A DNA stretch of 64,000 bases from Cognatundibacterium aquatile (lineage in GTDB: Bacteria > Pseudomonadota > Gammaproteobacteria > Burkholderiales > Burkholderiaceae_D), in contig NZ_JACOFT010000002.1 in assembly GCF_014699135.1 (NCBI RefSeq), positions 1-64,000 on the forward strand, written 5' to 3'. Position 1 is the first letter of the stretch; every line of letters starts with the position of its first letter. Positions 3,431 through 57,882 of this stretch are shown piece by piece. The notes beneath the pieces were generated by a model. That model was not told where the DNA came from. It did no database searches and was given only the letters and a program-made list of their open reading frames with translations. The position numbers and the translations under genes are program-made.

Positions 3431-3635
3431 GATTGACCTGATCAGATATGGTTGTCAGTGGAAGATTATAGTCATGTTGAAAAATGACAATGTAAATTCT
3501 CTATTCGTCGGATTGCTTACGAATGAATCGCCGTGAAGGAAATAGAGGATATCTTGCGCTTCAGTTTCATATCCGTGTCAACATGCGGCGGCACTTTTGC
3601 GTTATTACTGGATGCGATCTTTTTGGGAGTCAGAC

Positions 3636-4181
3636 ATGCGAACTAAAATACTGGTAACGACGTTGGTGATTACGGCACTTTCCGGCTGTGCAAATCAACG
3701 CTATACCGAAAACTACCCACAGCAATATCCAAATCAATATCCGCACCAGCATTCCCGACAATATCCGGATCGTCAGCCGAATACATATCCTCAGTATCAG
3801 AATCAATACCAGAACCAGTATCAGAATCAGCAAAATTATGGCGAACTGGCAACAATCGTCGGTATGCGTAATGTTGCTGTTGACGGAAATGTATCGGGTG
3901 CGGGAACCGTGGTTGGTGCGCTGGTTGGTGGTGTGCTTGGACATCAGGTCGGTAAAGGCACTGGCAATGACCTGGCAACGATAGGCGGTGCCATTGCTGG
4001 CGGTATCGTCGGTAACCAGATGGAGCGTGGTTCGGTAGGGCAGAAAATGCGCACCGAACTGACCGTACAATTTCCTAACGGCGAGACACGCACCATGCTG
4101 ATCGATAACCACGCCGGTTACCGTGTCGGCGACCGGATACGGGTGACAACGCAAAACGGTCAGCTCGTCCCGATGCAGTAA
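3636..4181 (+). CDS. glycine-zipper outer membrane lipoprotein
   Basis: 181 residues from ATG 3636, chosen because GGGAG lies just upstream and it gives a proper lipoprotein signal with lipobox ALSGC (Cys18). An earlier in-frame ATG at 3597 would add 13 polar residues before the signal. Residues ~22-68 are a low-complexity Tyr/Gln/Pro/Asn tract built from repeated QYPNQYP and QYQNQ units. Residues ~85-130 form a glycine-zipper 2TM domain (GALVGGVLGHQVGKG, GGAIAGGIVGNQ) like SlyB/17-kDa antigens. The C-terminal ~45 residues resemble the small beta domain of that family. Likely an outer membrane stability or envelope stress lipoprotein. Transcribed alone and ended by the hairpin at 4261. Confidence 0.9.
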   Translation: MRTKILVTTLVITALSGCANQRYTENYPQQYPNQYPHQHSRQYPDRQPNTYPQYQNQYQNQYQNQQNYGELATIVGMRNVAVDGNVSGAGTVVGALVGGVLGHQVGKGTGNDLATIGGAIAGGIVGNQMERGSVGQKMRTELTVQFPNGETRTMLIDNHAGYRVGDRIRVTTQNGQLVPMQ

Positions 4182-4257
4182 GTTATCTATCGTGTCTATC
4201 TTCGGAAAACGAAGGGGCTATCACAGCATGGTCACGTTTTTAAGATAACAAAAGTCA

Positions 4258-4290
4258 ATGTTGAGCGTCGATCAGGCGCTCAATTTTTTA
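4258..4290 (+). terminator. terminator hairpin that is an exact 33-bp copy of the moeA 5' coding region
   Basis: Stem TTGAGCG (4261-4267), 9-base loop, stem CGCTCAA (4277-4283), then six T. This is a plausible intrinsic terminator ~75 bases after the lipoprotein gene. The whole 33-bp block 4258-4290 is identical to 5591-5623, which encodes residues 7-17 of MoeA. Flanking bases on both sides differ between the copies. Confidence 0.8.
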
Positions 4291-4644
4291 CCATCAACAA
4301 TAGAGTCAGATCAAGCCGTGGTGGATGAAATCTGTTTAACCTCGTGCGTCACTTATCTAGTGCGGTAGTTTGTTACATTTCGCTTCTACTGGTAGGGTCC
4401 CGTCCTTGAATCTAAGAGGCTCATCGCATAGCACGTTGTGAGTACTTCGCGTATGAATGAGCCAGCGCGCGTTTTTCGAGCACATTCAACGAGTTCACTT
4501 ATAGATTGCTTTGATGCTCATTGTAAATGTTGCATCTGTGTGATCTATTTATTGTTGCTTTATACTTTCTTACCGCTTATTAAAAAGCATCATATATTTC
4601 TTGAGTTATCATAATTTAATTAATAACAATCTGTGAGGGTTGCA
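4291..4644. other. AT-rich intergenic region upstream of the secreted orphan gene
   Basis: No open frame of note. The last ~130 bases (4500-4632) are strongly AT-rich and probably carry the promoter of the gene at 4645. Candidate -10 boxes such as TATACT and CATATA occur, but none has a convincing -35. An inverted pair GGCTCAT (near 4428) / ATGAGCC (near 4466) is visible. No RNA gene is recognised. Confidence 0.5.
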
Positions 4645-5442
4645 ATGACGTTTGCCAAGTTGAATCAATTCGTCTTCGGTGTTGTGGCATTGTTTGCCAT
4701 TAGTGGTGCTGCCCAAGCGGAACTTTGCCCGGGTGTGCAAAAGATCAGCCTTATGTATGGCGGCAATGAATTGACCCATTGGGAAGGTAGCTCCAGTCAG
4801 ATCCACAAGCTGACGTTGCCCAATGGTTTTGTGCTGGGTGTGAAAACCGAGCAGGGGGCAAGGGAAATTTATGAGCGCGATTTTCAGCGCAGTCTGACGC
4901 AGACAACAGAATTGGTCAAAATCAGTCTGTATGATTATTCTGCCGCCGTACCACGTTATCTGACATCGACCTGGGGCGGCAGCCAATCCCAGCAGGGCTA
5001 TGGCCCCAAGGGCGGTGCTGACCGCGTGGATGAATTGGGAAGCGGCATCGTCCTGAATCTGGAGAAGCCAGCCTGCACTATTACCAAACTGGATCTGGCG
5101 GCCATCCCGACGGAAAAAGAACTGGGGCAAAGCAGTGAATCAATGATTCCGGATGAAAAAACAAAACAATGGATGCAGGTTGCCCAGCAGGACATCGCAA
5201 AAAAACGTTATGTGCTGTCGATGTTTAAAGATAGCCTGCCACCTGAGGTGGGAACCAGGTTAGCACAGTTGCTGAACAAGGACGGTATTGAGCTGGAACT
5301 CATAAAGTCTGGCGATGCGCATGATGCTAAAGCGTATATGGTGGGCTATGCTCAAACCATGCTAAGCGCTATTGAGACTCAATTCGGCAAAGAACATGGT
5401 AGAGATATCGAGCGCCAGTTAAAGTCTGAATTTGGGTTTTGA
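4645..5442 (+). CDS. secreted protein of unknown function
   Basis: 265 residues from ATG 4645, preceded by GTGAGGG at 4633-4639. The N-terminus is a clear Sec signal peptide (FVFGVVALFAISGAAQA, cleavage near residue 25). The mature part begins ELCPGVQKISLMYGG and has one further Cys near residue 148, so a disulfide is possible. The C-terminal ~90 residues look helical, with alternating charged and Leu-rich stretches. I do not recognise the family. It lies between the two copies of the 33-bp direct repeat (4258-4290 and 5591-5623), so repeat recombination could remove it in one step. Cargo acquired or lost as a unit is possible; this is inference. Confidence 0.8.
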   Translation: MTFAKLNQFVFGVVALFAISGAAQAELCPGVQKISLMYGGNELTHWEGSSSQIHKLTLPNGFVLGVKTEQGAREIYERDFQRSLTQTTELVKISLYDYSAAVPRYLTSTWGGSQSQQGYGPKGGADRVDELGSGIVLNLEKPACTITKLDLAAIPTEKELGQSSESMIPDEKTKQWMQVAQQDIAKKRYVLSMFKDSLPPEVGTRLAQLLNKDGIELELIKSGDAHDAKAYMVGYAQTMLSAIETQFGKEHGRDIERQLKSEFGF

Positions 5443-5572
5443 TAAATTACGTGTATTCAATGATTGTTAGCCAAGTTAGCTAGTACTGTGTCATCTAAAG
5501 GTAGCAGTGTGTCATTGCTGCCTTCGGGATACAATGCGGGAATACGTACTTCATCATTCCTGAGCATGTGAT

Positions 5573-6778
5573 ATGACCGAAAAAAAATCTATGTTGAGCG
5601 TCGATCAGGCGCTCAATTTTTTATTGTCAGCGGCACGCCCGCTGGCTGACACCAATCTCATTCCGACGATCGATGCGCATGGCCGCGTGCTGGCACAGAC
5701 ACAGTCTTCACTGCTGCACGTGCCACCGATAGACAACACGCAAATGGACGGCTACGCGGTGCGGGCAGCCGATTGCGCCAGCGGCGAAGCGCGCCTGCGG
5801 GTCGCTCAGCGGATTCCAGCCGGACATATAAGCACGCCATTGGAAGCCGGAACGGCTGCACGTATTTTTACCGGAGCGATGATCCCAGCCGGAGCCGACG
5901 CAGTCGTCATGCAAGAGCAATGCGTGGTTGACGGTGACTATGTCGTCATCCGTCATCAACCGCAAACTGGCGAATGGATACGCCGTCAGGGTGAAGATAT
6001 CGCTGCTGGTGCGACCATATTACAACCCGGAACCCGCTTGCGGGCGCAGGAACTTGGGCTGGCGGCCTCGGTTGGACTGGCGCAATTACCCGTCATCCGC
6101 AAACCACGGGTTGCGGTGTTTTTTACCGGTGACGAACTGGCGATGCCGGGTGAAGCGTTGAAACCGGGTGCAATCTATAACTCCAATCGTTTTACGCTCA
6201 CTGGTCTGCTACAAGACATGGGCTGCGACATCACCGACTACGGCATCGTGCCGGACACACTGGCGGCGACGCGCGAAACCTTGTGTAAAGCGGCACAGGC
6301 ACATGATTTGATTATTACCTCCGGTGGTGTTTCCGTCGGTGAAGAGGATCACATCAAGCCGGCGGTGGAAGCCGAAGGGCGCCTGAACATGTGGCAGATC
6401 GCTGTCAAGCCCGGTAAGCCGCTCGCCTTTGGCGAGGTTGGGCAGGCGTTTTTCCTCGGTCTGCCGGGAAATCCGGTGTCGAGTTATGTGACTTTCCTGT
6501 TATTTGTGCGCCCGTTTCTGTTACGTATGCAAGGTGTTGAGCAGGTCGCGCCGCAATCTTACGTCATGCGTGCCGATTTCAACTGGCCTAAACCCGATCG
6601 CCGTAATGAGTTTTTGCGCGCCCGCATCAATCCGCAAGGCGGGCTGGATTTATTCCCGAATCAGAGTTCAGGCGTGCTGACATCTACCGTCTGGGGCGAT
6701 GGTCTGATTGACGTGGCACCGGGACAGGTCATTCAGGCTGGCGACCAGGTACGTTTTTTACCGTTCGCATCATTTTAG
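5573..6778 (+). CDS. moeA: molybdopterin molybdenumtransferase MoeA (copy 1)
   Basis: 401 residues, the normal MoeA length. MoeA inserts molybdenum into adenylylated molybdopterin in the cytoplasm. Visible signatures: IDNTQMDGYAV (domain I), FTGAMIPAGADAVVMQEQ, IRRQGEDIAAG, FFTGDEL, ITSGGVSVGEEDH (the MoCF/MPT-binding motif) and GLPGNPVSS. It begins the cluster moeA-moaD-moaE. The ribosome-binding site before ATG 5573 is weak; an in-frame ATG at 5591 starts exactly at the repeated block. Codons 7-17 form a terminator-like hairpin with a T6 run, identical to the hairpin after the lipoprotein gene. A second moeA lies at 53127-54425. Confidence 0.96.
   Translation: MTEKKSMLSVDQALNFLLSAARPLADTNLIPTIDAHGRVLAQTQSSLLHVPPIDNTQMDGYAVRAADCASGEARLRVAQRIPAGHISTPLEAGTAARIFTGAMIPAGADAVVMQEQCVVDGDYVVIRHQPQTGEWIRRQGEDIAAGATILQPGTRLRAQELGLAASVGLAQLPVIRKPRVAVFFTGDELAMPGEALKPGAIYNSNRFTLTGLLQDMGCDITDYGIVPDTLAATRETLCKAAQAHDLIITSGGVSVGEEDHIKPAVEAEGRLNMWQIAVKPGKPLAFGEVGQAFFLGLPGNPVSSYVTFLLFVRPFLLRMQGVEQVAPQSYVMRADFNWPKPDRRNEFLRARINPQGGLDLFPNQSSGVLTSTVWGDGLIDVAPGQVIQAGDQVRFLPFASF
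5591..5623 (+). repeat. 33-bp exact repeat, second copy, inside moeA
   Basis: Identical over 33 bases to 4258-4290. Here it is read as codons 7-17 of moeA (MLSVDQALNFL), and it folds as TTGAGCG / CGCTCAA followed by six T. The two copies are direct repeats whose starts are 1333 bases apart, flanking the secreted orphan gene. Confidence 0.95.
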
Positions 6779-6808
6779 ATTTTTCCGCCTTACCGATAAA
6801 ATTGCATC

Positions 6809-7066
6809 ATGAAAATTCAATTACGTTTTTTTGCCAGCGTTCGTGAAAAACTCGGCTTATCTGAAGAAACCGTTACTTTGCCGGATGAAGTCACCACCGT
6901 CGGCGGTGTGCGGGCGTATCTGCAGTCGCGTGGCGGTCTCTGGGCCGACGTGCTGGCCGATGACCGCGCGTTGCGCATGGCGTTTGCACATGTGATGTGC
7001 GATGCGGAAACACCCATCAGCGAAGGCGGTGAAGTGGCATTCTTCCCACCTGTGACCGGAGGTTAA
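6809..7066 (+). CDS. moaD: molybdopterin synthase sulfur carrier subunit MoaD
   Basis: 85 residues with a ubiquitin-like fold, ending in the diagnostic ...FFPPVTGG. The terminal Gly-Gly is adenylylated and thiocarboxylated to donate sulfur to precursor Z. It starts MKIQLRFFASVREKLG, typical of MoaD. It lies 30 bases after moeA and 3 bases before moaE, so the three genes are almost certainly one transcript. Length is standard (80-85). MoaD and MoaE together form the heterotetrameric molybdopterin synthase. Confidence 0.96.
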   Translation: MKIQLRFFASVREKLGLSEETVTLPDEVTTVGGVRAYLQSRGGLWADVLADDRALRMAFAHVMCDAETPISEGGEVAFFPPVTGG

Positions 7067-7069
7067 ATC

Positions 7070-7573
7070 ATGACTGTGCGCGTGCAGACAGCAGATTTTG
7101 ATCTGAGTACCGAAGTCGCCAACCTGCGTAAAAACAATACCGCGATTGGTGCCATCGTCAGTTTTGTCGGCGTTGTGCGTGATCTGAATGATGGTCAGAA
7201 TGTGTCAGCGATGGAGCTGGAACATTATCCCGTGATGACGGAAAAAGCACTCGACGACATCGTTGCACAGGCAAACGCGCGCTGGGCGCTGCTCGATACG
7301 CTGGTCATTCATCGCGTCGGTGCTTTGATGCCTGCCGATCAGATCGTGCTCGTGGTTACTGCATCGAAGCACCGTGGCGAAGCATTTGCGGCCTGCGAAT
7401 TCATCATGGATTATCTGAAAACGCAGGCGCCGTTCTGGAAAAAAGAACAGGCGCCGGAAGGAGCACGCTGGGTTGATGCGCGTGAAGCCGATGATCAGGC
7501 GTTGAACAAATGGGGCATCTCTGCAAACAATGCCGCGACAGATTCTGCCTCACCTGACGGAGCGTCAGCATGA
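7070..7573 (+). CDS. moaE: molybdopterin synthase catalytic subunit MoaE
   Basis: 167 residues, standard MoaE length plus a short variable tail. Key features are FVGVVRDLNDG (residues ~28-38), the LEHYPVMTEKALDDI segment, IHRVG.L (MoaE HRVG motif near 83) and TASKHRGEAFAACEFIMDYLKTQAPFWK, which carries the catalytic lysines near the MoaD tail. It follows moaD by 3 bases. Its last bases overlap the start of crcB as ATGA (7570-7573), indicating translational coupling of the fluoride channel gene to the Moco operon. Confidence 0.96.
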   Translation: MTVRVQTADFDLSTEVANLRKNNTAIGAIVSFVGVVRDLNDGQNVSAMELEHYPVMTEKALDDIVAQANARWALLDTLVIHRVGALMPADQIVLVVTASKHRGEAFAACEFIMDYLKTQAPFWKKEQAPEGARWVDAREADDQALNKWGISANNAATDSASPDGASA

Positions 7574-7953
7574 ACTGGCTGGGCTGGCTGGCGGTTGGCA
7601 GCGGTGCTGCAATAGGAGCGTGGGCACGCTGGGGACTGGGTTTGTGGCTCAATGGCGTAGTGGCCCAATTACCGGTGGGAACGTTGGCAGCAAATCTGGG
7701 CGGCGGTTATATCATCGGGCTGGCTGTGGCTTTCTTTACGGCTTACCCCGATTTGTCTCCGGCGTGGCGATTATTTCTGGTGACCGGATTTCTCGGTGGA
7801 CTGACCACTTTCTCCACGTTTTCAGCAGAATCCATGACCTTGCTGCAGCGGGGCGAGTTTGGCTGGGCGCTGGCACATATCAGCGTGCATTTGCTGGGCT
7901 CTATTCTGTGCTGTTTTGCCGGCTTTGCCAGCTACCGCGCTATCGCTGGTTGA
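7570..7953 (+). CDS. crcB: fluoride channel CrcB/Fluc
   Basis: 127 residues, four hydrophobic segments. Fluc signatures are all present: GAAIGAWARWGLG near the N-terminus, GTLAANLGGGYIIG (normally NxxG), and GFLGGLTTFSTFS, the conserved pore/Na+ site segment. The protein works as an antiparallel dimer exporting fluoride passively. The gene overlaps moaE by 4 bases. No fluoride riboswitch is seen upstream, as expected for a gene inside an operon. It is followed by palindromic repeat copy A. Confidence 0.95.
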   Translation: MNWLGWLAVGSGAAIGAWARWGLGLWLNGVVAQLPVGTLAANLGGGYIIGLAVAFFTAYPDLSPAWRLFLVTGFLGGLTTFSTFSAESMTLLQRGEFGWALAHISVHLLGSILCCFAGFASYRAIAG

Positions 7954-7965
7954 ATTACTGAAAAA

Positions 7966-8043
7966 GGGGGAGTATGTGCTGTTTTTGCCTTATTCTCAGC
8001 GAAAACAAAGGGCTTTAAAATATACTCGGGGGAGTATATTTAG
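7966..8043 (+). repeat. palindromic dispersed repeat, copy A
   Basis: Starts with GGGGGAGTAT, carries the shared segment TTATTCTCAGCG and GGGCTTTAAAATATACTC, and ends in a hairpin AAATATACTC (8018-8027) / GAGTATATTT (8032-8041). The same arrangement recurs at 27611-27689 (same orientation) and 57796-57882 (opposite), with a diverged version at 42524-42612. It lies between crcB and pip. Confidence 0.85.
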
Positions 8044-8160
8044 CTCTGAAAAGGCTGTTTTTTCTTGTTTTTGGCTTGCTGCAACTATTGCGCCGTGCCG
8101 GGTGTCCCCCTGCACATACTTTCCCTTCCGTAAACCACATCATCTGACTGAACTGACATC

Positions 8161-9129
8161 ATGACAAGCGACACCATGCGCACTGTTTTTCCTGAAATCG
8201 AACCTTACCGAACCGGCACGCTGGCAGTGGATGAAATGCATACCCTGTACTGGGAAGAGTGCGGCAATCCTGATGGTCAGCCTGTGCTGTTCCTGCACGG
8301 TGGTCCCGGTGCGGGTACTTCACCGTCGCACCGACGCTTCTTTGATCCTGCGCATTACCGCATCGTGTTGTTCGATCAGCGTGGCGCCGGTAAATCTACC
8401 CCGCTGGGCGAATATCGGAATAACACCACAGCGCTGCTGATTGATGACATAGAAAAAATCCGCGTCATGCTCGGCATACAGCAATGGCTGGTCTTTGGCG
8501 GTTCCTGGGGTTCCACGCTGGCACTGGCGTACGGCGAAGCTCATCCTGAACGTTGTCTCGGCTTTGTCCTGCGTGGCATTTTCCTGTGCACCAGGGCCGA
8601 GGTTGATTGGTTCGTCAATGGCATGGGATATTTTTATCCTGAAATTCATCAGCGCTTTGCAGAAGCGATTCCTGTTGAAGAACGTGGTGATCTGCTGCAA
8701 GCGTATGTGAAGCGCCTGTTCTGTGATGACCCTGCGATCTACATGGAAGCAGCACGTAACTGGAGCCGCTACGAAGGTTCCTGCCTGTTTCTGAAACCGC
8801 AAGCTGAGGCAATTGCCAGTTTCGAGTCCGATGAGGTCAGTCTCGGCATCGGTCGCCTGGAAGCGCACTACATGCAGCATGGCGCTTTCATGGATGACGA
8901 TGCCTTAATCCGCAACATCGCCAAAATCCGTCATCTGCCGGCCGTGATCGTACAAGGGCGTTATGACGTGATCTGTCCACCCGTATCGGCCTATCGCCTG
9001 CATCAGGCGTGGCCGGAAGCAGCCTACCATGTGGTTGGTGACGCCGGTCATGCCGCGATGGAGCCGGGGATTGCCTCTGCGCTGGTACAGGCCACCGAAG
9101 ATTTCAAAACGCTGCGCCGATTTTCCTGA
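8161..9129 (+). CDS. pip: proline iminopeptidase
   Basis: 322 residues, S33 alpha/beta hydrolase that releases N-terminal proline from peptides in the cytoplasm. Visible are the oxyanion HGGPGAGTS (~41-49), FDQRGAGKS, the nucleophile elbow GGSWGS (Ser near 112), the acid in GRYDVICPP (~272) and the catalytic His in DAGHAAMEPG (~298). Length fits the 310-320 family. It starts at ATG 8161; a second ATG 15 bases later is possible. It stands alone between repeat A and the clpB promoter. Confidence 0.93.
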   Translation: MTSDTMRTVFPEIEPYRTGTLAVDEMHTLYWEECGNPDGQPVLFLHGGPGAGTSPSHRRFFDPAHYRIVLFDQRGAGKSTPLGEYRNNTTALLIDDIEKIRVMLGIQQWLVFGGSWGSTLALAYGEAHPERCLGFVLRGIFLCTRAEVDWFVNGMGYFYPEIHQRFAEAIPVEERGDLLQAYVKRLFCDDPAIYMEAARNWSRYEGSCLFLKPQAEAIASFESDEVSLGIGRLEAHYMQHGAFMDDDALIRNIAKIRHLPAVIVQGRYDVICPPVSAYRLHQAWPEAAYHVVGDAGHAAMEPGIASALVQATEDFKTLRRFS

Positions 9130-26094: not shown

Positions 26095-26300
26095 GAGATT
26101 CCGGTACGGTAGCCCGATACATGGAAAACAAATTTCAAGAGACAGCAATCAGAGTGGAAAGCAGTGCATGAATCAGGATAAATCACTGGCGTATGAAGGC
26201 ATATCAAAATACGTTGTCAGCTTCATCCGTCCGGTGTATGCGGTTTATGTGCTTGCGGGATTCAGATTAATAAAATTCAAAAATCATTCAGGAGAATTTG

Positions 26301-27476
26301 ATGGCCAAGGCAGTATTCAGTTGGGAAGATCCTTTATTGTTGTCCTCGCAGTTAACGGATGAAGAGCGCATGGTACAAGATGCCGCCCGCGCTTATTGCG
26401 AAGAAAAGCTGGCGCCGCGTGTGCTGGAGGCTTTCCGTCACGAGCGCACTGATCCATCGATTTTCCGTGAAATGGGCGAGCTGGGTCTGCTTGGTTCTAT
26501 GATCCCTTCCCAATATGGTGGTGCGGGCCTGAATTACGTTTGTTATGGTCTGGTCGCGCGTGAAGTCGAGCGCATTGATTCCGGCTACCGCTCTATGATG
26601 AGCGTGCAAAGTTCGCTGGTGATGGTGCCTATCAATGAATTCGGTAGTGAAGCGCAAAAGCAGAAATATTTGCCGAAACTGGCGTCGGGTGAATACATAG
26701 GATGCTTCGGCCTGACAGAGCCAGATCACGGTTCTGACCCCGGCAGCATGGTCACTCGCGCCAAAACGGTACCGGGCGGCTATTTGCTGACGGGCGCCAA
26801 AATGTGGATCACCAATAGCCCGATTGCCGATATTTTTGTGGTGTGGGCAAAAACAGATGATGGCCGTATCCGCGGCTTTATTCTGGAAAAAGGCTGGGAA
26901 GGTCTGACTGCACCGGCGATACACGGCAAGGTAGGCTTACGTGCATCCATTACCGGTGAAATTGTGATGGATGAGGTTTTTGTTCCCGAAGAAAACCTGT
27001 TGCCGCATGTCGAAGGCTTGAAAGGGCCATTCACCTGTCTGAATTCAGCGCGTTATGGTATCGCTTGGGGTGCGTTGGGTGCGGCAGAATTTTGCTGGCA
27101 CACGGCACGCCAGTACACACTCGACCGTCTGCAATTCGGTCGCCCGCTGGCGGCAAATCAGCTCGTGCAGAAAAAGCTGGCGGATATGCAGACCGAAATC
27201 ACACTGGCGCTGCAAGGTTGCCTGCGCTTGGGACGCATGAAAGACGAAGGCACGGCCGCAGTCGAAATCACCTCTATCATGAAGCGTAATTCCTGCGGTA
27301 AGTCGCTCGAAATCGCCCGCACTGCACGCGATATGCTGGGCGGCAACGGTATTTCAGATGAGTATGGCATTGCGCGCCATCTGGTGAACCTGGAAGTTGT
27401 GAACACCTACGAGGGCACACATGATATTCACGCCCTGATTCTGGGCCGGGCGCAAACGGGGATCGCCGCATTCTGA
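26301..27476 (+). CDS. gcdH: glutaryl-CoA dehydrogenase
   Basis: 391 residues from ATG 26301 (AGGAG at 26290-26294). Acyl-CoA dehydrogenase fold with the glutaryl-CoA-specific features [30 protein letters not shown] (FAD and substrate loop), [10 protein letters not shown] (substrate Arg), and [19 protein letters not shown] containing the catalytic Glu. The enzyme oxidises and decarboxylates glutaryl-CoA to crotonyl-CoA in lysine and tryptophan degradation. It follows the 3-hydroxyacyl-CoA dehydrogenase by 206 bases and probably has its own promoter. Closed by the terminator at 27499. Confidence 0.94.
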
Positions 27477-27610: not shown

Positions 27611-27689
27611 AGGGGAGTATATTGCGTTTTTTGCTTATTCTCAGCGTAAATGCTGGGCTTTAAAATATACTCCGGGGAGTATATTTACC
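27611..27689 (+). repeat. palindromic dispersed repeat, copy B
   Basis: Same orientation and layout as copy A at 7966: AGGGGAGTAT start, the shared TTATTCTCAGCG, GGGCTTTAAAATATACTC, and the terminal hairpin AAATATACTCC (27663-27673) / GGAGTATATTT (27676-27686). It lies ~90 bases after the gcdH terminator. Confidence 0.85.
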
Positions 27690-28108
27690 CTGTTTTTAGC
27701 TGTTTTCATTTGTTTTTGCCTGTCCGTGACGAGTTTTGCACAGTCAGCCTTGAAGAAAAAAATGGCGGCGAAATGCGTATTCCAGTAAAAACCAACCATT
27801 CATTCCAGTTCAAAAACAGCCAACCATTCTCGTTCAATGGCGGCCAGTGATTTCGATCCGCAGTAGTCCATTGATTCCAGTCGGATACCGAAACGCCAGA
27901 AGTGATCATGTGAATTTGGAATGATGATTTTATATAACCGACGGCTTTCGCCCCGTTGCGGACATACGATTTTCTCAATAGCGGACATTCAATTCGGCAT
28001 AACTCACTGAATTTTTTCTTCGGATGGGCTAAAGCCAATAGGTGTTCAGTCGCAATGAATTTCGTAATTAGAGGTTACGCTCGTTAACAAGCTCCATTGT
28101 TAGCCGGG
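27690..28108. other. non-coding, repeat-rich spacer at the edge of the accessory patch
   Basis: No convincing gene. Three loosely repeated ~20-bp blocks (27792, 27820, ~27866; pattern CCAACCATTCATTCCAGTTC) lie here, followed by two minus-oriented copies of the short motif seen between the orphan genes (27950-27967 and 27974-27990). An imperfect hairpin GTTAACAA / TTGTTAGC sits at ~28083-28104, just after the stop of the 152-residue gene. A minus-strand frame at 27706-28038 reads through these repeats and is not believed. Confidence 0.5.
27950..27990 (-). repeat. two spacer-motif copies, minus orientation
   Basis: Read on the minus strand these give GAATGTCCGCTATTGAG (27974-27990) and GTATGTCCGCAACGGGGC (27950-27967). 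Both match the first half of the motif GAAYGNCCGCTWCTGGCCGA found in plus orientation at 28610, 28999, 29479 and 30567. Confidence 0.6.
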
Positions 28109-28567
28109 TCATATTTCAAGCGAACTTGCTCTGGTCGCAATATCTACAGGATAGTTTGGGGACACGTAAATCGTTGCTGTGGGACGCTCTGGACTCAGCT
28201 GATTGATGGCGATTGTGGCCAATTCAAGGTTGAACTTGTCCAAGTTGGCATTCATCGCTTCGAGAAAACCTTGGAAGCCATTGACTTCCCAATCAATGTC
28301 CATGCTGTGGAACTCCGCCATTATGTCGTACACATACTGGCCTTCGTTGAACGGCTTGCGCAACGCTACTTCAACGTTTTGAAATAAGCACCACGGCAGC
28401 CAATATGTCTCGCCAGTCTCAATAAGGCGCATTCCGACGGCCTCATTTTCATAAACCAACTCAAATGCGCGCGGACTACGTTTAACGGAAACCGGAGGCG
28501 TCTCGGTTGAGACCAATGGCTGTTCCGCCTTCGTTTTCTTTCCAAAAATTTTCGATAGGAAATTCAT
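28109..28567 (-). CDS. orphan protein of unknown function, 152 aa
   Basis: No family recognised. It begins MNFLSKIFGKKTKAEQ, a short basic amphipathic start rather than a signal peptide. The middle, GETYWLPWCLFQNVEVAL, and acidic DIMAEFHSMDIDWEVNGFQGF are compact and look like a small alpha/beta cytoplasmic protein, compatible with the immunity-protein size class. It is the last of four small minus-strand genes (29498, 29019, 28629, 28109) separated by short spacers that share a motif. Composition is AT-richer than the flanking core genes. Confidence 0.65.
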   Translation of the reverse strand: MNFLSKIFGKKTKAEQPLVSTETPPVSVKRSPRAFELVYENEAVGMRLIETGETYWLPWCLFQNVEVALRKPFNEGQYVYDIMAEFHSMDIDWEVNGFQGFLEAMNANLDKFNLELATIAINQLSPERPTATIYVSPNYPVDIATRASSLEI

Positions 28568-28609
28568 TCAAAATTCTAACGTTGTTATTCGCGGGTAAAC
28601 ATTTCATTT

Positions 28610-28628
28610 CACCTTCCGCTTCTGGCCG
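28610..28628 (+). repeat. spacer motif copy 1
   Basis: CACCTTCCGCTTCTGGCCG. On the minus strand it begins one base-step after the TGA stop (28629-28631) of the 117-residue gene. Confidence 0.65.
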
Positions 28629-28982
28629 TCAATCGCCATCGCTCAATTTATCTATCAATACAGAATCGAACCATACATCCTCGTACTCAGGAGCCAGCAA
28701 GACACGCCATCCTGGCGGCAGAGCTAAGTATGGAACAATCTTAGGGCAGCGGTCCACTAGATGAGCAATGTGAAGTGGCTGATAAAAATCGGGACCGTCC
28801 GAACTCTCTCCTCCATAGATATACCAGCCGCTTGCGCCGTTCTCTGGGTTTATGCGAAGAGCATTAAGTGGTAATTTACCAAGGGAACCGAGAGCAATTC
28901 CTACCTTCTCATTTTCTTCAGGTGGCATGTGTCCTGCGCCGAAACGCTGACAGACACCCAACTGGCCATTTTCTTTCGTCAT
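28629..28982 (-). CDS. small protein resembling Imm33-type immunity proteins
   Basis: 117 residues, no signal peptide. The segments ASGWYIYGGE, PDFYQPLHIAHL and PYLALPPGWRVLL with YEDVWFD resemble, from memory, the Imm33-like domain of small proteins that protect against polymorphic toxins. No toxin gene is adjacent in the window, so if correct it is an orphan immunity gene. The spacer to the upstream 123-residue gene is only 36 bases. The family assignment needs a profile search and is tentative. Confidence 0.6.
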   Translation of the reverse strand: MTKENGQLGVCQRFGAGHMPPEENEKVGIALGSLGKLPLNALRINPENGASGWYIYGGESSDGPDFYQPLHIAHLVDRCPKIVPYLALPPGWRVLLAPEYEDVWFDSVLIDKLSDGD

Positions 28983-28998
28983 AAATTATCGATTACAT

Positions 28999-29018
28999 GA
29001 ACGGCAGCTTCTGGCCGA
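28999..29018 (+). repeat. spacer motif copy 2
   Basis: GAACGGCAGCTTCTGGCCGA, filling most of the 36-base spacer between two genes. On the minus strand it directly abuts the TAG stop (29019-29021) of the 123-residue gene. Confidence 0.65.
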
Positions 29019-29390
29019 CTAGTGCCTTTGTAAAGCGTCTAATGGCGGAAAGGAGCATTGATAAACCAGAACTACCTTTCGTCCTCTATTGAGGTCAAGG
29101 CACATTTCACCATCAATCATATAAAGATATTTACCGTCTGGCCCTATGTATAGTGGAGTTATTTCCAACCTAAAACCGGCGTCTAATTTCCGTACGGAAT
29201 ATTCAAAATCATATTTTTCTTTATTGACGTTGTAATTACTTGACGCCCAGCTTTTCGCGACAATTAGAACATCTTTATCTGCCGTATTAAGTACGTATGA
29301 CTTCTTTGGAATCCATTTACTTTCATAGCTAACAAAAGCAAATGACGATGAAGATGTTACAAACAATAAGAATGCCCAGATGAATTTCAT
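29019..29390 (-). CDS. exported orphan protein, 123 aa
   Basis: No family recognised. The N-terminus MKFIWAFLLFVTSSSSFAF is a short Sec signal peptide with cleavage near residue 18, giving a mature protein of ~105 residues. The rest is polar with alternating Lys/Tyr-rich strands (NVNKEKYDFEYSVRKLD, LYIGPDGKYLYMIDG) and one Cys pair (GEMCLDL ... YQCSFPP). It is followed, one base-step after the TAG stop, by spacer motif copy 2. The upstream spacer of 107 bases is very AT-rich (TATATTATTAAC) and could hold a promoter. Confidence 0.6.
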   Translation of the reverse strand: MKFIWAFLLFVTSSSSFAFVSYESKWIPKKSYVLNTADKDVLIVAKSWASSNYNVNKEKYDFEYSVRKLDAGFRLEITPLYIGPDGKYLYMIDGEMCLDLNRGRKVVLVYQCSFPPLDALQRH

Positions 29391-29478
29391 GCGTTGCTTC
29401 GCTAGTCAAGTTTGAAGGAGAGGCCAGATACATTATTACATAAAGTTAATAATATAGCATCTAATTGAGAGCATGGTC

Positions 29479-29497
29479 GAATGACCGTTATTGGCCG
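29479..29497 (+). repeat. spacer motif copy 3
   Basis: GAATGACCGTTATTGGCCG. On the minus strand it directly abuts the TAG stop (29498-29500) of the small membrane protein gene. Confidence 0.65.
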
Positions 29498-29734
29498 CTA
29501 GGCGCCTTTTTTGCGAGAAAAATTCTGCCAACAACTAATTAAAACTAATGCCAGAAATGCGGATGGGAATGCGGTCACCAAATGCTCAGGTAAGACAAAC
29601 GGAAATACCTTGTCGAAAATTGTGTAGGCTAGTGAGAAGAACCAAGCCAACGACAAGACCCACTGCTTACGCCAAGCGTAGGCTGCGCTCGCAATAACAG
29701 TACCAACAAGAATCAAAATAGTAGCGATTTGCAT
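29498..29734 (-). CDS. small membrane protein, 78 aa
   Basis: Start set at ATG 29734 because GAGG lies 6 bases upstream on the minus strand; the open frame reaches 29866, but that part overlaps the hydrolase gene and is Ser/Arg-rich. Three hydrophobic segments are visible: IATILILVGTVIASAAYAW, VLSLAWFFSLAYTIF and FPSAFLALVLISCW, ending in a basic tail FSRKKGA. Function is unknown. It lies 67 bases downstream of the hydrolase gene and just before spacer motif copy 3. Confidence 0.6.
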   Translation of the reverse strand: MQIATILILVGTVIASAAYAWRKQWVLSLAWFFSLAYTIFDKVFPFVLPEHLVTAFPSAFLALVLISCWQNFSRKKGA

Positions 29735-29801
29735 TTTAAGCCTCATAAAAATTTGAGCGTCCGCTCCTGGCACATTCTTCCACTGGTACGCCTTGCGCTT
29801 C

Positions 29802-30488
29802 TCAACTGAAGAGGAACTTGCTGACCTCGAGATTGAGCTGGGCGAAAAACGGTTCGCGTTTCTCAATAGTATCTACGACGTTTGGCGGCAGTTCGTTCAT
29901 GAAGGAGAAGTGACCTGCACCCTCAATAAAACGGGCGTCCACCAGCGAACCCAGGGTGTTTTTTAGAAATACGGTCTGAGACGGGAGGGTAATAGAATCT
30001 AGCAAACCGGCCCACGCTTGCATCGGAGTGCGCACCTCATCAAGAGCGCCAGGCACTGTGAAGAAATCCATTGCCGGAGTGAACACCACCATTCGTTCTA
30101 TTCTTTTGTCTGCTTCAAAGTCTAGCTTTTTGCCGTCATGCATCCACATTTGACCGCCGGCCAAACCAATCAGTATCGCTGAGCCTATCGAATGTCCGAC
30201 GGCGTAGATAGCTTGTTCCGCTCGCGCTGCGAAGTCGAGTGCGAGACGAAGCCTCCGAATCCTCATTGCCAGTTCAGTCGCCGAAACCAAGCGGCTAGTT
30301 ATCCGCTCGAAGTGGGGCGCTATTACCGTACATCCCTGTTCAGCCAACATGTTCAACAGAGGCATGTGGCGACACGGGTTCCCACCGCCCCCCACTGCGA
30401 AAAGTACAGTCCGGGATGCACCAGGTGGCTGGAAGATGGAAACCGTAAATTCTCCCGTATCGTCTTTAAGTACAATTTGCTTGTTCAT
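29802..30488 (-). CDS. alpha/beta hydrolase of the accessory patch
   Basis: 228 residues from ATG 30488 (MNKQIVLKDDTGEF), preceded by GGAAAT; the frame extends to 30614 without a better ribosome site. Alpha/beta hydrolase features: an oxyanion region LFAVGGGGNPCRH, the nucleophile elbow AVGHSIGSA, and a late His in GAGHFSFMNELPP. Such serine hydrolases with unknown substrates are common. It is the first gene of the minus-strand run down to 28109. A spacer motif copy (30567-30588) lies upstream of it. Confidence 0.75.
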   Translation of the reverse strand: MNKQIVLKDDTGEFTVSIFQPPGASRTVLFAVGGGGNPCRHMPLLNMLAEQGCTVIAPHFERITSRLVSATELAMRIRRLRLALDFAARAEQAIYAVGHSIGSAILIGLAGGQMWMHDGKKLDFEADKRIERMVVFTPAMDFFTVPGALDEVRTPMQAWAGLLDSITLPSQTVFLKNTLGSLVDARFIEGAGHFSFMNELPPNVVDTIEKREPFFAQLNLEVSKFLFS

Positions 30489-30788
30489 ATTTCCGATATC
30501 CGAAAAAAGGCGTTTTATACTGTCACGATTCATTTGGCAGAACAACATCAGATTGGAGAGTGGCGTGATTGTCCGCAACTGGCCGAACTCGGACTGTGTC
30601 CGTAAGGATAGCATCTTGCTTCGCTGAAAAATAGGTGGAATATCACAACTTCGAATGGCGATGCCGACAATTCCACGAACACTAGCCGAGCTTCAAACTA
30701 TCCTTAGAATGGATGGCATTGGGCCGGAACGAGCAGCATGGCTGGAGCGAGAACAGCCGACGGAAGTAGATGAGAATACGCAGTGAAA
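30489..30788. other. spacer between the accessory patch and hslO
   Basis: Holds one more copy of the spacer motif (30567-30588) and a plus-strand 43-codon frame from ATG 30655 to 30786 (MAMPTIPRTLAELQTILRMD...), which may be a gene fragment but has no ribosome-binding site or recognised family. Nothing else is supported. Confidence 0.4.
30567..30588 (+). repeat. spacer motif copy 4
   Basis: GATTGTCCGCAACTGGCCGA plus AC. Same orientation as copies 1-3; it lies upstream of the alpha/beta hydrolase gene, at the outer edge of the orphan gene run. Confidence 0.55.
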
Positions 30789-30838: not shown

Positions 30839-31765
30839 TCAGTGCTTGCTGTCGCCCGGGGGCAGGATGCCTTCTGCCAATGTTTTAGCAACGAATAACT
30901 GGGCGCAATCAACCGGATCGAAACCGTAATGTTTGCCGCAAAAATCGCAATTGATATCGAGCTTGCCGAATTCTGCAATCGCGCTTTCCACTTCATCTAT
31001 CCCCAGCATTTTCAGCATGTCGCCGACTTTTTCGCGGGTACAGCTGCAATGAAAACTCGGCTGCAGCGGGTCGAATACGCGCAGCGTCTGTTCCCAGAAT
31101 AAGCGGTGCATCAGCGTTGCGATGTCGTGATTCAACATTTCGTCTTTTTTTAAAGTATCACCCAGCATCACCGCGTGATTCCAGGCTTCGGCTTCATCCT
31201 CGACCTGCGATTCGCTGCCACCGGTTTTCGGTAACTTTTGCAGCAACATACCGCGCGTGACTTTATCGTTGGCGGCCAGCCAGAGTTTGGTGTCTAGCTG
31301 TTCTGAACGCTGCATATAATTTTCAATGACGGTCGCAATGCTGTCGCCATCGAGCGGGACGATGCCCTGATACGCCTGTTGCCCCGGCATTTTGTCATTC
31401 GGATCCAGCGTAATCACAAAGCGCCCATGTCCGTGCGCATGCACCAGATCTTTCAGGGTTTCATGGTCTTCGATCACGGCGTCGTCGGCCAGTTTTGCCG
31501 TGGCACGCAGACGCAGTTCAGAGTCGCATTCAACCACCATCAATTTGACCGGGCCATCACCGTGAATCTGCATGATCATCGTGCCGTTGAACTTCAGATT
31601 GGCAGAGAGCAGGGCAGCGGCGGCCATCAGTTCGCCAAGCATCGTTTGCACCGCAGGCGGATAGGTTTGGTGCGACTGCATTTGTTGCCAGGCGCTTTCC
31701 ATTTCGACCAGCTCGCCGCGTACGCCAGCGTGTTCGAACATAAATTTTTGTAAGGTGTCTGTCAT
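30839..31765 (-). CDS. hslO: redox-regulated chaperone Hsp33
   Basis: 308 residues from ATG 31765 (MTDTLQKFMFEHAGVRGELV, the conserved Hsp33 start); the open frame runs 18 codons further but without similarity. The C-terminal zinc switch is complete: CSCTREKV (CxC) and CDFCGKHYGF (CxxC). Under oxidative unfolding stress these cysteines form disulfides and activate holdase function in the cytoplasm. The gene is minus-strand with its own terminator and follows the gamma-carbonic-anhydrase-like gene by 72 bases, so co-transcription is likely. Confidence 0.97.
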   Translation of the reverse strand: MTDTLQKFMFEHAGVRGELVEMESAWQQMQSHQTYPPAVQTMLGELMAAAALLSANLKFNGTMIMQIHGDGPVKLMVVECDSELRLRATAKLADDAVIEDHETLKDLVHAHGHGRFVITLDPNDKMPGQQAYQGIVPLDGDSIATVIENYMQRSEQLDTKLWLAANDKVTRGMLLQKLPKTGGSESQVEDEAEAWNHAVMLGDTLKKDEMLNHDIATLMHRLFWEQTLRVFDPLQPSFHCSCTREKVGDMLKMLGIDEVESAIAEFGKLDINCDFCGKHYGFDPVDCAQLFVAKTLAEGILPPGDSKH

Positions 31766-57678: not shown

Positions 57679-57795
57679 GGCGTCGATATTGATATTGGCT
57701 GGTGAGGGTTGAATGCTTAAGATTGCATCGGGGCGGTGATTTCACGTCAGCATGCAGTTGTCGCGACGCACGGTGTAAAAATGCCTGATTATCGG

Positions 57796-57882
57796 GGTAA
57801 ATATACTCCCGGGAGTATATTTACAAGCCCTTTAAACATGCTGAGAATAGCCCGATTTATCTAAATAATGGGGGGAGTATCC
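57796..57882 (-). repeat. palindromic dispersed repeat, copy C
   Basis: Contains a perfect 28-bp palindrome at 57797-57824, centred on ACTCCCGGGAGT with flanks GTAAATAT / ATATTTAC. On the minus strand the shared TTCTCAGC and GGGCTT blocks precede it, in the same order as in copies A and B. A GGGGGAGTAT block lies at 57871-57880. It lies between the rne terminator and the chrA gene. Confidence 0.85.

Follow-up and report, generated by a model that had tools for sequence, protein, structure and literature searches.

Among bacterial cassette systems, integrons are the standard case: small genes stand in tandem, all facing the same way and each ending in a recombination site, and are shuffled as units; their attC sites carry RYYYAAC and GTTRRRY boxes. 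Arrays without a neighbouring integrase (CALIN) occur too. The dif modules of Acinetobacter plasmids have short two-armed sites with a 6-bp spacer and a recombinase that acts in trans, and rearrangements take place between sites with like spacers (PMC13141974, available in part). Here, a patch of five minus-strand genes is described from Cognatundibacterium aquatile, within a stretch of 64,000 nucleotides (positions 1 to 64,000 of contig NZ_JACOFT010000002.1, the whole of which is referred to as the window). The open reading frames (ORFs) and a match to hslO bear out a preliminary description made from the sequence alone, which had placed five such genes between gcdH and hslO; on the gcdH side the flank is an acyl-CoA dehydrogenase gene. 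A two-armed site recurs in this patch in an array layout with the genes, relatives carry the same units elsewhere and differently ordered, and the breakpoints between relatives lie at the centre of the site. The patch is probably an array of gene cassettes that move by site-specific recombination at this site, which is termed site A.

The two-armed site and the layout of the arrays

Allowing up to 3 mismatches, the motif CGGCCARWAGCGGHCRTTC matches four times in the 64 kb, always on the minus strand (28610-28628, 28999-29017, 29479-29497 and 30567-30585), against a chance expectation of 0.26 (100 shuffles, largest 2). A sequence near CGGCCAGAAGCGGHCRTTC is found 3' of the stop codons of three window genes, where the stop codons end 0, 1 and 0 bp ahead of the centre CGGCCA, and once more on the hslO side, confirming the earlier claim of a motif at the stop codons in three spacers with a fourth copy elsewhere. 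This 19-bp stretch had also been taken as a fixed 3' tail of the genes. It does recur after stops, but it is the right half of a 34-bp element, site A, in which two inverted arms surround a near-constant CGGCCA centre, and in loci sampled from other taxa more of the genes run opposite to it than with it.

An element of 34 bp with sharply defined edges, TGAAYGKCCGCTWT-CGGCCA-GAAGCGGWCRTTCA, emerged from the alignment of 119 sequences. The search pattern fixed 17 of the 34 positions of this logo and restricted 2 more, and the free evidence in it consists of the edges and the left arm; the constancy of the CGGCCA core is partly due to selection, because the aligned sequences were picked by that core. 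No clear covariation of the two arms was seen at the two arm pairs free to vary (120 sequences), and the site has no match in Rfam at gathering score. A second type, site B, is A-like, stands in inverse orientation and has the centre CGACCC or CGCCCC (the window copy reads GGGGCG in gene direction).

The window array runs A, gene, A, gene and so on, and is ended by an inverted B. At its upstream end is site A1 (30566-30599, minus strand, centre CGGCCA), the left arm of which belongs to the hslO-side chromosome and the right arm to the first cassette; the alignment with a congener breaks at its centre. Site A2 (29754-29787, minus strand), between a hydrolase-like gene and the gene of a small hydrophobic protein, mem, is a fifth copy with the centre GTGCCA, and its right arm almost equals that of the congener's site before mem (28/30 bases match on the right, 12/30 on the left). 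This may be a decayed copy or a variant; that GTGCCA could be a variant and not decay is suggested by two enterobacterial plasmids, on which site-like copies have it as their centre too. Site A3 (29478-29511, minus strand) holds the stop codon of cassette 2, TAG, directly before the centre, whilst the stop of cassette 3, TAG, lies one base before the centre of site A4 (28998-29031, minus strand) and that of cassette 4, TGA, directly before the centre of site A5 (28609-28642, minus strand). Site B (27935-27968, plus strand) closes the array on the gcdH side, and the congener alignment resumes at its centre. Two inverse half copies had been reported at 27950-27990; inverse copies are present there, but as this whole site together with one half, a B-type arm (GAATGTCCGCTATTG, 27976-27990, minus strand) read directly from the sequence, which is possibly the leftover of a lost cassette end. 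The region past site B (27802-27934) is common to another array locus of the congener, genome G028, with 72% identity over 166 bp, part of B included.

Using a 60-sequence model, and with a part of the weakly matching genomes read, arrays are recognised in 6 of the 43 genus genomes: G000 (the window genome), G028, G023, G026, G064 and G066. The order A, gene, A, gene, ended by an inverse B, is present in 10 of 12 genus arrays read, and no B was seen in the displayed parts of loci L296 and L299; G023 has a minimal array of one gene. About 45-160 bp past B are common to some arrays of one species or of two close congeners. Simple ORF picking, with shared cassettes counted repeatedly and L299 left out, gave 31 intervals between neighbouring A sites in the genus (median 480 bp), 26 with an ORF of at least 60 amino acids (aa) and 5 without. 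The largest ORF runs with A in all 26 of the ORF-bearing intervals (median ORF 135 aa). In ten genus array loci, a codirectional ORF of at least 60 codons ends 0-46 bp upstream of 31 of the 40 A sites, at a median distance of 15 bp and with 8 of the 31 at 0-3 bp (95 bp upstream were searched, and the count is without a shuffle control). A motif scattered at random relative to stop codons does not fit these genus arrays. As the genus distances span 0-46 bp, the exact stop contact seen in the window is their lower extreme.

Exchange of cassettes between loci and relatives

Two genes of the window array, mem and its neighbour sec, recur on another contig of G028, a congener whose hslO is 99% identical to that of the window, with protein identities of 97% for sec and 94% for mem. 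There, sec (L045:8521-8892) lies upstream of mem (L045:8921-9169), which is the swapped order compared to the window; two further small genes come after the pair, and each gene is separated from its neighbour by a site. At G028's own gcdH-hslO locus the flanks share 90-91% DNA identity with those of the window and enclose different genes, and the two loci align up to the centre of the first A and again from the centre of B onwards. The order, locus and neighbours of the genes differ in relatives and the breakpoints fall at the centre, which supports the acquired cassette array of the preliminary description and excludes the same genes being kept in fixed order in relatives.

Copies are also found within one genome. 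G023 carries a 112-aa gene twice, in arrays where its neighbours differ; between the site centres the two copies are the same except for one base, and their identity begins at CGGCCA and stops three bases short of the next CGGCCA. A 125-aa gene occurs likewise in another array pair of this genome (99% over 469 bp).

Fifteen junctions were chosen from block ends lying at a site, and 30 bases were compared on each side. At all 15, one side of the 6-bp centre has 25-30 matching bases out of 30 and the other side 6-17 out of 30. The set includes both ends of two window cassettes, both gcdH-hslO ends, four ends from G023, one end each from Halomonas, Pseudomonas and Stenotrophomonas, and both ends of a Luteimonas unit. 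As far as can be judged from such sequence comparisons, cassettes appear to be exchanged as units, with the crossover at a fixed point of the site.

Site A also has the properties by which repetitive extragenic palindromic (REP) sequences, bacterial interspersed mosaic elements (BIMEs) and miniature inverted-repeat transposable elements (MITEs) are recognised, in that it is a dispersed palindromic intergenic repeat, although this alone leaves cassette exchange unexplained. The sites could be REP- or MITE-like repeats without a role in recombination, with genes gained and lost by ordinary routes and the breakpoints found there since the repeat fills short spacers. Palindromic intergenic repeats are common in Pseudomonas, and those of P. 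fluorescens include families, such as R6 and R178, which are palindromic and some of which are perhaps MITEs or terminators (PMC2718517, available in part). These families are, like site A, palindromic and intergenic, in a genus with many copies, and may include site A; in the portion available, the paper describes repeats without cassette exchange, and the word 'cassette' occurs 0 times in its main text. Furthermore, many site copies are single or paired in loci without an evident array, and one centre in the window differs. The spacers between the window genes are 36-107 bp long, yet all 15 junctions, albeit chosen at sites, lie at one 6-bp centre. Repeats without a recombination role also do not account for near-identical whole cassettes in two arrays of one genome (G023), or for the one direction of the genes in 26/26 ORF-bearing genus intervals, and this explanation of the sites is considered improbable.

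Distribution and candidate enzymes

An exact-core scan was performed over 84,980 species genomes, and all figures are from the matches listed. The exact core is present in at least 120 stretches, when by our own arithmetic about 10 are expected by chance in the whole collection, and some of the scattered matches may be chance ones. Among the 120 matches listed, about 94 belong to Gamma-/Betaproteobacteria, about 20 to other groups and 6 to unassigned Proteobacteria, according to the record titles. Matches at E 0.003 were obtained for 36 of the 276 genomes of a class sample, one of which has at least 25. The distribution of the cassette system is patchy. Several sites are within a few hundred bases of contig ends in G075, G219, G280 and others; the copy numbers from draft genomes may be underestimates, because site repeats near contig ends suggest broken assemblies.

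Halomonas, Pseudomonas and Stenotrophomonas likewise have units ending at A. An 8.2-kb unit that runs from A to an inverse B is 99.8% identical in Luteimonas colneyensis and L. padinae (L470:8837 to L471:1097 and L476:14019 to L477:4279), with 14 mismatches and one gap throughout, and the host arms outside it differ. It encodes a CzcA-family RND pump and a weakly CDF-like protein, and apparently represents a recent transfer. On plasmids, five matches to one composite site were found, all partial, of which three were inspected. A single site-like match at score 15 is present in each of two of these loci, L258 and L260, and the third, L259 (Enterobacter plasmid pENT01), carries five site-like copies in 12 kb, at 3439-8192, with centres such as GTGCCA and not CGGCCA; these may represent an enterobacterial variant of the same family of sites. 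No phage sequence matched the composite site.

Closely spaced site pairs (<130 bp) are 33-35, 46-48, 57-59 or 67-71 bp apart in 36 of 41 cases. Other taxa often carry B-A composites, the linkers of which are alike within several genomes and different between genomes. At 68-93 bp, these composites consist of two inverted core sites separated by a linker, much as attC does, and the integron integrase, IntI, might be what moves the cassettes, with the sites as an unusual class of attC. In the class sample, a larger share of the site-bearing than of the site-free genomes has IntI (23/36 versus 95/240 at E 1e-40; odds ratio 2.7, p 0.007), and the cargo is like that of integrons, for which small orphans, SUKH, cupin and SnoaL proteins are typical. 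However, neither a RYYYAAC nor a GTTRRRY box is present on either strand of the 6 window spacers, in agreement with the earlier statement that the motif is not a classical attC. G075 and G215, the genomes with most site matches, are without IntI at E 1e-40, the integron integrase model found nothing over cut-off in G000, and of 30 IntI loci in other genomes 0 had a site at score 18 within at most 1.5 kb. Single A sites stand between the cassettes in the window genus. A role for IntI is considered unlikely. The arrays share with integron cassettes the features named at the outset (small genes in tandem, in one direction, with an end recombination site and shuffled as units) but differ in the absence of R boxes from the window spacers, in a 34-bp site with a near-constant CGGCCA, in the single sites between cassettes, in having several arrays per genome and an inverted closing site, and in that no linked IntI was found. 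As a separate observation, two integron integrase genes of G181 (L409 and L415) end in an almost identical sequence of foreign appearance (VAPGVLP..ATLVHPVRRIPM), beginning near the same codon in both, as though one repeat had inserted twice.

The units might also be mobilised in trans by a DDE transposase of the IS1182 family, or by another palindrome-targeting transposase, the cassettes being non-autonomous insertions in palindrome centres. The centre of the site is where IS1182-type termini (CTTTTTCAACA..AATCGGCC) end; of the 11 found in Pseudomonas contigs, 5 run directly into CGGCCAGAAG, and at L046 such a terminus lies beside a transposase over the IS1182 cut-off. Against this, the cassettes are without terminal inverted repeats beyond the site arms, and tandem in-register cassettes that share one site are unlike insertions with independent ends, so that mobilisation of this kind is regarded as very improbable. 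Termini of the IS1182 type are seen at the centre of A or of an A-like palindrome at L100, L102, L108, L114, L172, L188 and L046, as if this insertion sequence (IS) family targets site A, an association that is biased because the loci were picked by the site core. It would be a parallel to the IS1202 family, which targets pdif recombination sites (PMC10132070, available in part), although the IS family differs.

Several observations weigh against a cassette array moved by recombination at site A, and the IntI results in G000 and at the 30 loci are among them. No recombinase was found to be linked to the arrays; IntI and PF00589 were searched, and serine recombinases and HUH transposases were not searched for. 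The PF00589 search in nine congeners covered 20 stretches, comprising most non-Xer matches of G000 and G028 and eight of G023, and none of them has a site at score 15. A 339-aa tyrosine recombinase family represented by L301 (G000, G028) is present in 27 of 43 congeners at E 1e-20, array-free ones included, and four members that were inspected are without a convincing site nearby. In eight site-bearing genomes, 29 of 30 PF00589 loci are without a site at score 17, the single locus with a site-like match being L416 (centre CAGCCA), and none of 20 PF00589 loci in a further set of eight genomes, those behind named loci, has a site at that score.

Further such points concern the site and the units themselves. 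The left arm of site A is weak in the window genus, and the short pattern shows no genome-wide excess, either in 60 relatives with one mismatch (7 matches versus 10 for the control) or in nine congeners with two mismatches (62 versus 110). In other taxa, the largest ORF runs against A in 50 of 79 ORF-bearing intervals and with it in 29. Among the shared blocks of 131 other-taxa loci, 13 of 93 have a site-located end in both loci, 2 of them at both ends, and the remaining blocks look like homologous genes or repeats. Of the five genus cassette pairs that are at least 90% identical, one (L294/L296) lacks a recognised site on at least one side. The second G028 array (L045:6883-10364, compared with L487) is absent from G000 as a 3.48-kb difference, which consists of 1.5 kb preceding the array, the array itself and 0.3 kb following it; a clean empty site was not seen in G000 at this locus, as the ends of the 3.48 kb are off the sites.

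Cargo of the arrays and proposed mechanism

The acyl-CoA dehydrogenase gene on one flank (26298-27476, plus strand) has a glutaryl-CoA dehydrogenase model among 22 NCBIfam matches, all under their cut-offs, and hslO on the other (30839-31765, minus strand) has an NCBIfam match over cut-off. All five cassette genes are on the minus strand. The first is alpha/beta-hydrolase-like (29802-30488; a weak Abhydrolase_6 match under cut-off). As listed, from 30614, its ORF extends through the first site A, and because it crosses that site the true start is probably the ATG at 30548, 30533 or 30488. The gene of cassette 2, mem (29498-29746), encodes a small hydrophobic protein with a weak DUF7670 match under cut-off. 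The small membrane protein of the preliminary description is retained here as an 82-aa product, the start of which is most likely the ATG at 29746, as in G028, and not the TTG at 29866 of the ORF list. In cassette 3, sec (29019-29390, 123 aa) has an apparent N-terminal signal sequence, judged by eye, which is in line with the secreted protein suggested earlier. The predicted Imm33-type gene is that of cassette 4 (28629-28982), which matches PF24719 over the Pfam cut-off (E 1.1e-37), and the 152-aa protein of cassette 5 (28109-28567) is without a match in Pfam, NCBIfam and PADLOC.

The patch had been read as an immunity or defence array, a part of the preliminary description that is not borne out as it stood. 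A defence or immunity family is matched by 1 of the 5 window genes, the Imm33-like one, and 0 of the 5 proteins match PADLOC at E 0.01; as the Imm33-like protein alone is clear and PADLOC matches none, a defence role is not established for the array. For 30 further proteins from genus arrays, a Pfam search left 17 without a match at E 0.01. The cargo over cut-off comprises SUKH-1, an LprI lysozyme inhibitor, cupin, SnoaL, SIMPL, LMWPc and three DUFs, and an Imm32 match is weak.

Other repeats are present at or near the arrays. Beside the window array, at 27612-27721, is a further interspersed repeat (GGGGAGTATATT ... AATATACTCCCC); this copy resembles 7967-8076 (78% over 111 bp) and 57795-57849 (82% over 55 bp). 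In L296, two cassette genes are each followed by a strongly palindromic repeat of 115 bp (7770-7891 and 8468-8589), which is seen again in L298:6487-6594 (G064). A first impression of the L296 repeat as an attC was dropped; it is a separate palindromic repeat, neither A nor B.

In the proposed mechanism, each cassette, usually one small gene, would be bounded by the centres of two successive 34-bp A sites. A recombinase would pair two A sites, with strand exchange within or at the 6-bp centre CGGCCA, and this exchange would excise, insert and reorder whole cassettes in register. Each junction would be left as a hybrid site, with the left arm of one cassette and the right arm of the next. Arrays lie at several chromosomal loci and are ended by an inverted B with a different centre. 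The exchange may be driven by a dedicated recombinase acting in trans, and circles may serve as the cassette intermediates. The likeliest type, by analogy, is a trans-acting tyrosine recombinase, because the arms are inverted about a 6-bp centre as at pdif/dif sites; a 2-bp crossover at the GG common to the centres of A and B would fit as well.

The units are like dif modules in being bounded by two-armed sites with a 6-bp centre. Unlike in dif modules, the interior A sites of the genus are direct repeats and the closing B is inverted, with no alternation, and unlike those of Acinetobacter plasmids the units are on large contigs of many Proteobacteria and have a different centre. The arrays are filed under neither integrons nor dif modules, because the tests for attC, for a linked integrase and for alternating sites failed. 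Among the papers listed by sequence-word and concept searches of the open-access literature, none was seen to describe such cassettes. The balance appears even as to whether this is a third bacterial cassette system beside integrons and dif modules, consisting of a core site with its own trans-acting recombinase, by which small accessory genes are stocked and reordered at many loci of Gamma-/Betaproteobacteria together with multi-kb units such as a metal-efflux operon.

If so, it would be another widespread cassette system beside that of the integrons, with a different site, and a part of the small orphan genes of proteobacteria would be a mobile, shuffled pool that is invisible to attC and IntI searches. 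The near-constant 6-bp centre provides a simple handle with which such cassettes can be found, and makes the question of the recombinase directly testable.

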